From positions 1-21,019 of IMG/VR virus record IMGVR_UViG_3300032236_000914: 21,019 nucleotides of DNA. One strand, 5' to 3'. Of the stretch, positions 5,445-19,245 are shown piece after piece. Below the pieces are notes generated by a model, which worked only from the letters and a program-made list of their open reading frames with translations, was not told where the DNA came from and made no database searches. This DNA comes from a virus. The translations under genes and the position numbers were made by a program. Within the stretch, counting starts at the first letter, position 1, and every line of letters starts with the position of its first letter.

Positions 5445-5876
5445 ATGAATAAAAAATGTATAACTTGCAACCAAATAAAAGACATAGAGTTGTTTGCAAA
5501 AGCAGCAAGATACAAAGATGGCAGAAGAAATTATTGTAAATCTTGCCATTCAATATATATGACAAATTACATAAAGAACAATCCAGGAAAGAGATCAAAG
5601 CAGAACCCAAACAGAAAGTTTAGAAGGCATGGATTAACTGAAGAAAAATATCTTGAGTTATATGAAAAGCATAATGGCAAATGCCATGCTTGTAAAGAAA
5701 GAGAAGGTACAAATATAGATCATGACCACAGTTGTTGTAATAAGGCAAGATCTTGTGGTAAATGTGTAAGAGGCTTGTTGTGTAGCCAATGCAATACAGC
5801 TTTAGGTTTATTAAATGATGATGAAGAAAAAATTAAAAATTTAATAAAGTATTTAAAGCAACCGACAGTATCCTAG
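5445..5876 (+). CDS. Endonuclease VII-like HNH endonuclease
   Basis: 143 residues. An N-terminal zinc ribbon (CITC at 5-8, CKSC at 31-34) precedes the recombination endonuclease VII-type His-Me core: C80/C83 (GKCHACK), IDHDH at 91-95, RGLLCSQCN with C113/C116 and N117, then ALGLL. Family members cut branched or double-stranded DNA; free-standing copies in phages often behave as homing-type elements. Two further genes of this design lie at 19302 and 20229. There is no Shine-Dalgarno, and the ATG lies 6 nt after the -10 box. Its last codons and stop (5874-5876) run into tRNA-Ile, an overlap of 15 nt. Confidence 0.88.
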   Translation: MNKKCITCNQIKDIELFAKAARYKDGRRNYCKSCHSIYMTNYIKNNPGKRSKQNPNRKFRRHGLTEEKYLELYEKHNGKCHACKEREGTNIDHDHSCCNKARSCGKCVRGLLCSQCNTALGLLNDDEEKIKNLIKYLKQPTVS

Positions 5877-5940: not shown

Positions 5941-6012
5941 TTCCCGTTCGTCCAATTGGAAGGACAATGGCCTTTGAAGCCATGAATCGTGGTCCGAATC
6001 CACGGCGGGAAG
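5941..6012 (+). tRNA. tRNA-Gln (anticodon TTG)
   Basis: Acceptor TTCCCGT/GCGGGAA, D-stem GTCC/GGAC, anticodon stem ATGGC/GCCAT with loop CTTTGAA (TTG), 4-nt variable loop, T-stem CGTGG/CCACG with loop TCCGAAT, discriminator G, no encoded CCA. Reads CAA. Confidence 0.92.
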
Positions 6013-6015
6013 CAA

Positions 6016-6134
6016 GGCTATAGGTAGCACACCTTAGAATGGTATAGTTACATATAACAAATATAGGTACCCGTGTGTAAGAGTTCGGGGAGATAGGGCA
6101 GAGTCATTCTGTGCTGGAATATCTACCTATAGCC
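6016..6134 (+). ncRNA. Structured RNA candidate with 12-bp closing stem, inside the tRNA cluster
   Basis: A perfect 12-bp helix (GGCTATAGGTAG at 6016-6027 with CTACCTATAGCC at 6123-6134) encloses two arms. Arm one stacks CACAC 6028-6032/GTGTG 6073-6077, GGTA 6041-6044/TACC 6068-6071 and GTTA 6047-6050/TAAC 6055-6058. Arm two is CAGA 6099-6102/TCTG 6108-6111. The result is a three-way junction of about 119 nt between tRNA-Gln and tRNA-Thr. It has no tRNA T-loop and does not look like 5S rRNA, tmRNA or a group I intron to me. Phage T4's tRNA cluster also encodes two stable RNAs of unknown role, so a comparable stable RNA is plausible. It is probably cut out of the tRNA precursor. Confidence 0.65.
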
Positions 6135-6137
6135 CCT

Positions 6138-6212
6138 GCTTCCTTAGCTAAGTGGTATAGCATCCGCCTTGTAAGCGGAAGGCCGTCAGTTCAATCCTGA
6201 CAGGAAGCTCCA
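6138..6212 (+). tRNA. tRNA-Thr (anticodon TGT)
   Basis: Acceptor GCTTCCT/AGGAAGC, TA at 8-9, D-stem GCTA/TAGC, anticodon stem TCCGC/GCGGA with loop CTTGTAA (TGT), T-stem GTCAG/CTGAC with loop TTCAATC, discriminator T and encoded CCA. 75 nt; reads ACA. Confidence 0.94.
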
Positions 6213-13602: not shown

Positions 13603-13908
13603 ATGACAAACATTCAACCACTAGGAACACTAGTTTTGGTTAAAAAAATTGAAGAAAAAGAAAAAACAACAGCTTCAGGCTTAGTCCTAACCGCCTCTGC
13701 AATGGAAGCAGAATTAGCACGTGGAACGGTAATTGCAGTTGGCGAAGGAACAAGAGACATTCAAGGAAACATTCATCCACTTAATATCAATATTGGTGAT
13801 ATTGTTTATTTTAATGAAATGCATTTAACAGAAATAACTGATGATGATAACAACAAGTATAATTTTATTGCTTTCAGCAATCTTTTTGGAAAGGTAACAA
13901 ATGGCTAA
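13603..13908 (+). CDS. groES: GroES-like co-chaperonin (Cpn10)
   Basis: 101 residues, full Cpn10 length. MTNIQPLGTLVLVKKIEE matches the first strand; residues 17-33 (EEKEKTTASGLVLTASA) are the GroEL-binding mobile loop; RGTVIAVGEGT, NIGDIVYFNE and the closing strand complete the beta barrel. GroES caps GroEL during folding. Phage versions such as T4 gp31 and CocO let host GroEL fold large capsid proteins. No groEL occurs in the window, so the host's is presumably used. With HSP20 this is the second chaperone here. It overlaps the next gene by 8 nt and has its own promoter. Confidence 0.93.
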   Translation: MTNIQPLGTLVLVKKIEEKEKTTASGLVLTASAMEAELARGTVIAVGEGTRDIQGNIHPLNINIGDIVYFNEMHLTEITDDDNNKYNFIAFSNLFGKVTNG

Positions 13909-14131
13909 AGTATCTTTAAATTATGAAGCAGCGCATAAGTTTGTTGAAAAAAATAAGTCTCAAGGATTTTTTTGGGATGGCTACACCATTGTAAAGTGGT
14001 CTCCAAGTAACAATGGTTATATGCAACCAAATGGCATGTTTAGAAATAATAAATGGGGTTATTCAAATCGCTATAATTTAACTGCCAACGGTACTTGGGA
14101 GATTAGCGATAAATATGCCAAACTCATTTGA
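13901..14131 (+). CDS. Small aromatic-rich phage protein of unknown function
   Basis: 76 residues rich in Tyr, Trp, Asn and Lys (GFFWDGYTIVKWSPSNNGYM, KWGYSNRYNLTANGTWEI), suggesting a small beta fold. No family is recognised, and no signal peptide or membrane segment is seen. It overlaps groES by 8 nt and the WhiB-like gene by 17 nt, so it belongs to the operon from the 13541 promoter. Confidence 0.7.
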   Translation: MAKVSLNYEAAHKFVEKNKSQGFFWDGYTIVKWSPSNNGYMQPNGMFRNNKWGYSNRYNLTANGTWEISDKYAKLI

Positions 14132-14435
14132 TAAAATTGGTATAGGTATTGATGAAAAAGATTTAAAATGGTATCATCTTGCTGCTTGCAACAATATGTC
14201 AATTAATTGGTTTTATGACGACTATGAAGTTGATAAAGAGTTAGCAAAACAAGTTGATCAAATATGTATGCATTGCCCAGTTATAAAGCAATGTTATGCA
14301 GAAGGAGTCAAAGATAAAGAAAAAGGTGTAAGGGGCGGTGTCTATATGGATCTTGGCAGACCAGATAAACAACATAACGATCATAAAGACGCTGAAACAT
14401 GGAAAAGGTTGAAAAAACTTCATGGAAAAAATTAA
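14115..14435 (+). CDS. WhiB-like iron-sulfur transcription factor
   Basis: 106 residues. WYHLAACNNMSINWFY, then CMHCPVIKQCYAEG and GVRGGVYM, give the four-cysteine 4Fe-4S pattern C25, C51, C54, C60 and the G[VI]xGG beta-turn (W to R here). WhiB proteins are restricted to Actinobacteria and their phages; they partner SigA and redirect transcription, and phage copies can repress host whiB genes or block superinfection. A basic C-terminal tail (WKRLKKLHGKN) may contact DNA. It overlaps both neighbours (17 and 14 nt). The gene is a main argument for the host group. Confidence 0.92.
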   Translation: MPNSFDKIGIGIDEKDLKWYHLAACNNMSINWFYDDYEVDKELAKQVDQICMHCPVIKQCYAEGVKDKEKGVRGGVYMDLGRPDKQHNDHKDAETWKRLKKLHGKN

Positions 14436-18396: not shown

Positions 18397-18560
18397 CCTT
18401 TGAAGATTATATTAAAAGAATTAAAGAAGAAGATGAAGAATTGCTAAAGAATCTCGGATCTGATTTTGATGAAGAAGGTATACCATATTGGGAAAAGTGG
18501 CATAAGCGTATTGACAATCCCGCCGTTGATAGTGTAGAATCAACACATGACAAAAATTGA
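18393..18560 (+). CDS. Small acidic phage protein (55 aa) of unknown function
   Basis: The frame starts MTFEDYIKRIKEEDEELLKN and ends VDSVESTHDKN, helical and acidic. AAGGGGG lies about 11 nt before the ATG (a good ribosome site), the start overlaps the previous stop, and the end overlaps thyX by 14 nt. The thyX promoter lies inside it. Confidence 0.6.
   Translation: MTFEDYIKRIKEEDEELLKNLGSDFDEEGIPYWEKWHKRIDNPAVDSVESTHDKN
18511..18540 (+). promoter_or_regulatory. Promoter, TTGACA-N18-TAGAAT, leaderless thyX
   Basis: TTGACA at 18511-18516 and TAGAAT at 18535-18540 with 18 nt between. The gap to the thyX ATG is 6 nt, and no ribosome site is present. Confidence 0.75.
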
Positions 18561-19245
18561 TGTATTAGATAAAGGCTATGTACGTTTAGTAGATGTATTG
18601 GGTAATGATTTATCAATTGTAAATGCAGCTCGTGTTTCATATGACAAAGAATCTACTGAATTTGGATTAAGAGATGAAAAATTAATTGATTTCTTGATTA
18701 GAGAAGGACACACTTCCCCGCTCAGACACGCAGCCCTTACATTTGAGATTTATGCCCCATTAATGGTGGCACGTCAATGGTGGAAGTATGCAGTTGCATC
18801 TACACATATTGATGATCAAAATGGGTGGAATGAATCATCTCGCAGATATATTACAGAAAAAGAAGAATTTTATATTCCAGAAGAAGATCAGTGGCGATCA
18901 AAACCAGAAAATTCTAAACAGGGTTCAGGAGAACCAGTAAACAAATATGTTGGTTATAGCTATACTGAATTACTTAAGGATTATATTAAAAAAGGTGAAC
19001 ATTATTATCAATTGGCACTTCAAGATAATATAGCACCAGAGCTTGCTAGATTATTTCTTCCTGCATATGGTATGTACGTTCGTTGGAGATGGACTACGAG
19101 TTTACAAGGCGTCATTACATTTTTAAATCAAAGATTACCTCATGATGCACAGGTAGAAATTCAAGATTATGCTAAAGCAGTTAAAGATTTATCTTCGTCA
19201 GCATTTCCTAAGACATTCGTTAGTTGGAGTAAAAATGAATACTGA
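18547..19245 (+). CDS. thyX: Flavin-dependent thymidylate synthase ThyX (variant motif)
   Basis: 232 residues. The first part (IVNAARVSYDKES, LREGHTSPLRH-type segment, FEIYAPLMVARQWWKY) and the C-terminal YVRWRWTTSLQGVITFLNQR follow ThyX. The signature RHRx7S is altered: ARQWWKYAVAS at 75-85 has WWKY where RHR is expected, and NESSRRY (95-101) follows after a short insert. ThyX methylates dUMP to dTMP with FAD and methylenetetrahydrofolate; some phage homologues also vary here, so activity is probable but not certain. It would supply thymidine for an AT-rich genome. Leaderless promoter just upstream. Confidence 0.9.
   Translation: MTKIDVLDKGYVRLVDVLGNDLSIVNAARVSYDKESTEFGLRDEKLIDFLIREGHTSPLRHAALTFEIYAPLMVARQWWKYAVASTHIDDQNGWNESSRRYITEKEEFYIPEEDQWRSKPENSKQGSGEPVNKYVGYSYTELLKDYIKKGEHYYQLALQDNIAPELARLFLPAYGMYVRWRWTTSLQGVITFLNQRLPHDAQVEIQDYAKAVKDLSSSAFPKTFVSWSKNEY

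Follow-up and report, generated by a model that had tools for sequence, protein, structure and literature searches.

A widespread phage tRNA-cluster RNA with a conserved core predicted to be antisense to helix 69 of 23S rRNA

Stable RNAs other than tRNAs occur in phage tRNA clusters, as exemplified by RNA C and RNA D (species 1 and 2) of T4, for which we know of no complementarity to rRNA. CopA and CopT are an example of antisense pairing by hairpin loops. Helix 69 of 23S rRNA joins the two ribosomal subunits and is the target of capreomycin-type drugs. It is described as a main inter-subunit bridge, and an antisense peptide nucleic acid (PNA) against it inhibits the growth of Escherichia coli (Kulik 2017, cited in PMC7038079, excerpt). 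Phage-encoded RNAs that act on other RNAs include anti-sRNAs such as AgvB (PMC4104026, excerpt), and phage theta (HDV-like) ribozymes are small structured RNAs located directly beside phage tRNAs (PMC10879173, excerpt). Besides, eukaryotic and archaeal snoRNAs (C/D, H/ACA, U3, and snR30) are small structured RNAs with bipartite complementarity to rRNA.

The RNA described here has the tRNA-cluster setting in common with T4 RNA C and RNA D, a likeness at the level of description. Like CopA/CopT-type kissing RNAs and AgvB, it is built around a hairpin loop complementary to the hairpin loop of another RNA, and it shares its phage origin with the anti-sRNAs; by analogy it may work like a kissing antisense RNA, although its predicted target is helices 69 to 71 of 23S rRNA and not an mRNA, a plasmid RNA, or an sRNA. 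It differs from snoRNAs in that no C/D or H/ACA layout is visible, its arms are contiguous, and it is encoded by a bacterial phage. It also differs from the theta ribozymes, which it resembles in size class and location, by its fold, by the lack of any Rfam match, and by its paired termini. The synthetic helix 69 PNA, which blocks growth, has the identical putative rRNA target (PMC7038079, excerpt), but it is man-made, whereas the tRNA-cluster RNA is a natural viral RNA. In the portions of the literature on related RNAs that were covered, pairing of this kind with 23S rRNA is described for neither a phage nor a bacterial RNA.

The element is located in an IMG/VR virus record of 21,019 bases, the whole of which was analyzed and is referred to as the window, and in which ARAGORN predicted seven tRNAs. 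As the initial annotation had noted, it adjoins tRNAs on both sides, beginning 2 nt 3' of tRNA-Gln and ending 3 nt 5' of tRNA-Thr (Table 1), and it is probably released through tRNA processing. An endonuclease VII-type gene (5445-5876) also lies within this tRNA cluster and overlaps the start of tRNA-Ile. The minimum free energy of the element was -37.3 kcal/mol (z = -2.6 versus shuffles). The same annotation had recognized no RNA family, and we likewise obtained no Rfam match for the element, either at the gathering score or at E values up to 5; when the window and divergent members were searched against Rfam 15, only tRNAs reached the gathering cut-off. The tRNA-cluster RNA is a structured RNA outside every described Rfam family, and it belongs to no known RNA family among those tested.

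Table 1. Features of the tRNA-cluster RNA and its flanks (positions in the window; rRNA in E. coli numbering)
Feature	Position	Strand	Remarks
tRNA-Gln(ttg), 5' flank	5941..6013	+	ARAGORN
Whole structured element, 119 nt	6016..6134	+	Between tRNA-Gln and tRNA-Thr
P1 closing helix, 5' strand, GGCTATAGGTAG	6016..6027	+	12/12 pairs double-changed, 99.7% of cells paired
Element A, CTTAGAATGGTATAGTTAC	6033..6051	+	Putative antisense to 23S rRNA 1929-1910
P2b hairpin, TATA-GTTACA-TATA	6043..6056	+	Would display the anti-helix-69 loop (GUUACA); 96% of cells paired
P3 hairpin, CCCG/CGGG, loop TGTGTAAGAGTT	6070..6089	+	4/4 pairs double-changed, 76% of cells paired
Element C, GTTCGGGGAGATAGGG	6083..6098	+	Family: putative antisense to 23S rRNA ~1990-2006; weak in the window copy
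P4 stem-loop, CAG/CTG outer pairs in the window copy	6099..6116	+	7/7 pairs double-changed, 86% of cells paired (family)
Element B, CATTCTGTGCTGG	6105..6117	+	Putative antisense to 23S rRNA 1961-1972 (helix 71 side); CATTC-GTGCAGG
P1 closing helix, 3' strand, CTACCTATAGCC	6123..6134	+	Same P1 covariation, 12/12 pairs, 99.7% of cells
tRNA-Thr(tgt), 3' flank	6138..6212	+	ARAGORN

Homologues were sought in 80 loci identified by terminase homology, which together with the window made up the first 81 sources; there the element occupies a matching position within the tRNA cluster. Additional homologues were collected with a closing-stem pattern and a conserved-core pattern. The covariance model found the element in 57 of the first 81 sources and in 69 of 73 further sources, the latter partly chosen by pattern and including some loci that share a contig; the window copy, itself part of the seed, scored 82.3 bits (E = 6.7e-21). 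Family members range from 77 to 144 nt, and most full-length ones have a perfect closing helix of 11 to 14 bp despite widely differing sequence. Exactly one core copy was present in 16 of 18 whole virus records, whereas a reversed control pattern was present in 0. The actinobacterial-type core pattern gave only two isolated, unconvincing matches among approximately 85,000 bacterial and archaeal genomes. The family is widespread among freshwater phages, at the same genomic place.

The perfect 12-bp closing helix (P1) was correctly described at the outset, GGCTATAGGTAG being fully complementary to CTACCTATAGCC. The accompanying statement that such a match is not expected by chance has to be corrected, because a 12-bp inverted repeat of this spacing occurred somewhere in 18 of 200 shuffled 21-kb windows (9%), and the repeat alone is therefore weak evidence. 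Another perfect inverted repeat of 12 bp in the window, AGCAATATAATA (1492-1503 and 1599-1610), is unrelated; it is inside an ORF and probably due to chance. Helix P1 is proven not by the repeat itself but by covariation over 55 distinct homologues, in which the compensatory changes that the initial annotation had proposed as a check were found at all 12 pairs. Overall covariation was far above that of shuffled or slid controls in this model-based alignment, which was fitted to the structure; a first MAFFT alignment gave the same result for P1.

The interior of the molecule had been drawn as a three-way junction with two arms, but the consensus has four helices (P1, P2/P2b, P3, and P4) meeting in a four-helix junction. 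Among the sequence words proposed for the arms, CACAC/GTGTG, GGTA/TACC, and CAGA/TCTG were present in only 3, 7, and 6 of the 55 homologues, respectively, and only the GTTA/TAAC words persisted (24 of 55), as part of a weaker, shifted hairpin. P2b, P3, and P4 were likewise supported by the alignment; P2 was weaker (62 to 65% of cells). Minimal versions of 77 to 80 nt (L003, L088, L101, L124, and L129) consist of P1 and the antisense core without the usual P3 and P4, a hint that what is essential is the core. Some copies have tRNAs on both sides and others close a run of tRNAs; still others, by inspection, directly follow a promoter-like sequence (L128, L142, L145, L151, L156, L177, and L067) or precede an ORF with no directly adjoining tRNA (L039 to L041 and L046). 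Three further candidates were rejected: a mini-ORF in the core (AUG-GUA-UAG) is lost in members with insertions, the GG of a T-box-like AGGGUGGNA is not conserved, and neither is the GUAA of the P3 loop GUAAGAG with which the loop GUUACA might have kissed.

The main feature of the RNA, overlooked in the initial annotation, is a conserved core that is, by its sequence, antisense to helix 69 of 23S rRNA, so that the informative comparison is not the one first drawn with the orphan stable RNAs of T4. Written as CUUAGGAUG(n)UAUAGUUAC or CUUAGRAUG(n)UAUAGUUAC, the invariant core equals the reverse complement of the 23S segment GUAACUAUAACCAUCCUAAG (1910-1929) of Nonomuraea and Tsukamurella, and its predicted target comprises the loop and 3' strand of helix 69 and the 5' strand of helix 70. 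In the window copy, the match is interrupted by an A.C mismatch at 1924 and by a single unpaired A close to 1919. Scoring one point per Watson-Crick match and -2 per mismatch or gap, we obtained 17 for the cores against an actinobacterial rRNA operon (15 for the window's core and one other), compared with at most 13 for shuffled cores (2,000 per core), 7 to 8 for the sense strand, and 9 to 14 against E. coli rRNA. The conserved complementarity of the family exceeds chance, and we use antisense RNA to 23S rRNA as a working class.

Conservation of the core followed the putative duplex. Across the 55 sequences, near-invariance covered the positions that face 1910-1916 and 1925-1929 and did not extend to those facing 1909 and 1930, and the sole substitution facing a U (1926, 1923, 1917, and 1915) was A to G, which retains G-U pairing; pairing at 1924 was broken in one clade. 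This set was found partly with the core pattern, and the members found only by terminase homology or covariance (L010, L016, L045, L046, L054, L060, and L067) agree. Every tRNA-cluster member has an indel or a mismatch within 1918-1924, so that no uninterrupted 20-bp duplex would form. The RNA, its helices, and a complementarity whose conservation tolerates G-U pairs and has sharp bounds are established at the level of comparative sequence analysis, and we regard the complementarity of the core to 23S rRNA as strongly supported.

The middle letters of the tRNA-cluster core fit the actinobacterial CCAUCC better than the E. coli CGGUCC. The window encodes a WhiB protein (14115-14435), and its closest terminases are those of Streptomyces phages of Stanwilliamsviridae; thus, the host of the phage is likely an actinobacterium. 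A search of nine named isolated phages with related terminases (infecting Streptomyces, Rhodococcus, or Gordonia), run without a positive control, gave no match to the RNA. The window also encodes a GroES-like co-chaperonin (Cpn10; 13603-13908) and a ThyX thymidylate synthase (18547-19245). In a relative, Streptomyces phage Comrade, the tRNA region after the terminase includes a gene annotated as encoding a Ro-like RNA-binding protein (L189:13643-15259); the known ligands of Ro proteins include Y RNAs and misfolded rRNA.

For the 3' half, core-free sequences representing many clades were used to scan two actinobacterial rRNA operons on both strands. One clear peak emerged, antisense to 23S rRNA at ~1960-1985, in a region reaching to ~2006 (summed z of 41 and 46), compared with 27 for the next-best place and 18 to 20 for shuffled operons; without the four strongest members it was still first (24 and 29 versus at most 19). 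In the two-strand scan this peak also outranked the 16S sense sequence at ~620-690, which the 3' half had appeared to resemble. Matches cluster at 1961-1975 (CGCCAUUCGUGCAGG) and 1990-2006 (UCUGCGGUUGAGACAG). A profile HMM of the 3' halves did not find rRNA, no rRNA was scored by the full covariance model, and scoring of single sequences with G-U pairs allowed was not above shuffles and was uninformative; the putative complementarity of the 3' half is divergent.

We consider it probable that the tRNA-cluster RNA functions by pairing with host 23S rRNA, as a phage-encoded, trans-acting antisense RNA that docks on helices 69 to 71 of free or maturing 50S subunits. P1 would close the molecule, and a hairpin would present the anti-helix-69 UAUAGUUAC in its loop and the adjoining nucleotides, immediately preceded by CUUAG(G), so that both could jointly pair with 1910-1929, while the looser elements of the 3' half could pair with 1961-2006. 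Because P1 joins the ends of the RNA, elements A and B can be placed on either side of rRNA helix 70/71, and their pairing around helices 70 and 71 may create a four-way junction. First contact would be a loop-loop kiss with the exposed helix 69 loop of a free or maturing 50S subunit, which could then spread into the flanking strand as CUUAG pairs with 1925-1929. Holding helices 69 to 71 out of place may block the joining of 30S and 50S subunits or late 50S maturation during infection. Mutation of helix/loop 70 is described as abolishing subunit association (PMC5408214, excerpt). We infer that the RNA is produced and binds in vivo; any one effect of the pairing is less than half as probable as the pairing itself. 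Plain inhibition of translation would conflict with a lytic phage's own need for ribosomes unless it were partial, late, or directed at newly made subunits.

The same pairing might instead protect the ribosome, the RNA covering or splinting helix 70 so as to block or bridge MazF-type cuts at UUCCU in abortive infection, which we regard as unlikely. The RNA sits beside phage tRNAs, which have themselves been proposed as answers to RNA-cutting defences, and elements A (1910-1929) and B (1961-1972) flank the UUCCU site of helix/loop 70 (1939-1943). The hypothesis is motivated by the cutting of 23S rRNA at helix/loop 70 by actinobacterial MazF-mt3 and MazF-mt6 (PMC5408214, excerpt). There is, however, no sign of such toxins in the hosts of these phages, and pairing across helices 69 and 70 would disturb the ribosome too. 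A snoRNA-like role as a modification guide, presenting nucleotides near C1920 to a modifying enzyme, or as an rRNA chaperone assisting the folding of domain IV is quite improbable: although the bipartite antisense is consistently unpaired or mismatched opposite 1918-1924, its arms are contiguous (at most a few nucleotides apart) without the upper stem of H/ACA guides, neither C/D boxes nor an H/ACA guide pocket with ACA were seen by eye in the family alignment, and to our knowledge guide-dependent modification enzymes are absent from bacteria. That a helix 69 cytidine is methylated by TlyA (PMC12805891, excerpt) would suit such a guide.

The antisense sequence also occurs in a second context. 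The core pattern with E. coli-type middle letters matched 56 viral contigs, in many of which the motif lies right 3' of a stop codon and is followed by a strong hairpin. We therefore also considered a set defined independently of the motif, namely 80 loci found by homology of one major capsid protein, which gave 44 distinct downstream regions. The antisense CUUAGG-R-Y-Y-GUU-R-UAGUUAC was present in 25 of the 44, at stop+4 to +12 and before a terminator-like hairpin. The changes were again mainly compatible with G-U pairing: A to G opposite U1923 (8 cases) and U1917 (11 cases) and, if E. coli-type 23S rRNA is assumed at 1921-1922, C to U opposite G1921 (18 cases) and G1922 (3 cases). A single change, U to C at 1919, breaks pairing, and a gap of one base at 1922-1923 is present in a few members. 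When A or G replaced C in the pattern, 24 contigs matched, most of them in the capsid context, which indicates that the two central letters are the variable part. The middle letters of the capsid group are E. coli-type (C opposite G1922 and Y opposite G1921), and the nearest named relatives of its capsid are those of Streptomyces phages; if the hosts are actinobacteria, the two central positions would be mismatched.

The motif was absent downstream of the capsid gene in Streptomyces phages Karimac and Mildred21, in Bacillus phage KLEB27-3, and in Moorella phage MTATph1, and an Rfam search of the capsid 3'UTR group gave nothing but tRNAs at the cut-off. The capsid 3'UTR hairpins with the anti-helix-69 sequence (L277 to L329, also L198, L199, and L253 to L276) are possibly 3'UTR-derived small RNAs. 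A variant one base shorter, CUUAGG-CUGUUAUAGUUAC, occurs in L170, L173, L320, and L321, and in L170, L173, and L320 it is surrounded by an AGGCU/AGCCU stem, suggesting that the hairpin stem covaries around the antisense loop. In a third form, CTTAGGAGTTATAGTTAC lies within a short hairpin whose closing stem is GAAGAGGGCGCA/TGCGCTCTCTTCC, and an ORF that begins MKKLAVF lies downstream (L256:3167-3184, L258, L259, L264, L268, and L275).

These capsid copies, 4 to 12 nt past the stop codon and before a terminator-like hairpin, could mean that the hairpin acts in cis on the ribosome of its own message, by recycling or capture of the 50S subunit after the capsid stop, with the tRNA-cluster RNA as a derived free version; this seems rather implausible, as the tRNA-cluster copies mostly have no directly preceding ORF and are closed by P1. 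It is very improbable that the tRNA-cluster RNA is an orphan structured RNA of the T4 RNA C/D kind, released by tRNA processing, whose rRNA complementarity is an accident of structural constraints. Such a reading accounts for the position between tRNAs and for the strong fold of the RNA itself, but the core score is far outside the shuffled distribution, conservation has sharp boundaries at 1910 and 1929, the same antisense recurs in the unrelated capsid 3'UTR setting, and the 3' half points to the same rRNA neighborhood. A self-cleaving, tRNA-end-trimming ribozyme, which the direct contact with tRNAs would recall, as in theta ribozymes (PMC10879173, excerpt), is extremely improbable, as there is no Rfam ribozyme match, the 5' and 3' ends pair over 12 covarying bp and do not form the HDV fold (5'-terminal P1 with cleavage at the first base), and several copies lack an adjoining tRNA.

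Beyond pairing of the tRNA-cluster RNA with host 23S rRNA, we hold it to be evenly balanced that phages of several lineages control the host 50S subunit through an RNA loop-loop kiss with the decoding-bridge helix 69, in two formats (a P1-closed tRNA-cluster RNA or a capsid-message 3'UTR hairpin) and with 50S maturation, subunit joining, or recycling as the controlled step. If confirmed, the tRNA-cluster RNA would be an example of a virus acting directly on ribosomal RNA by means of a natural RNA of its own, and some of the orphan RNAs in phage tRNA clusters would be accounted for. It would also provide natural, structure-tuned leads for antisense molecules against helix 69 of 23S rRNA and would represent a new layer of host takeover.
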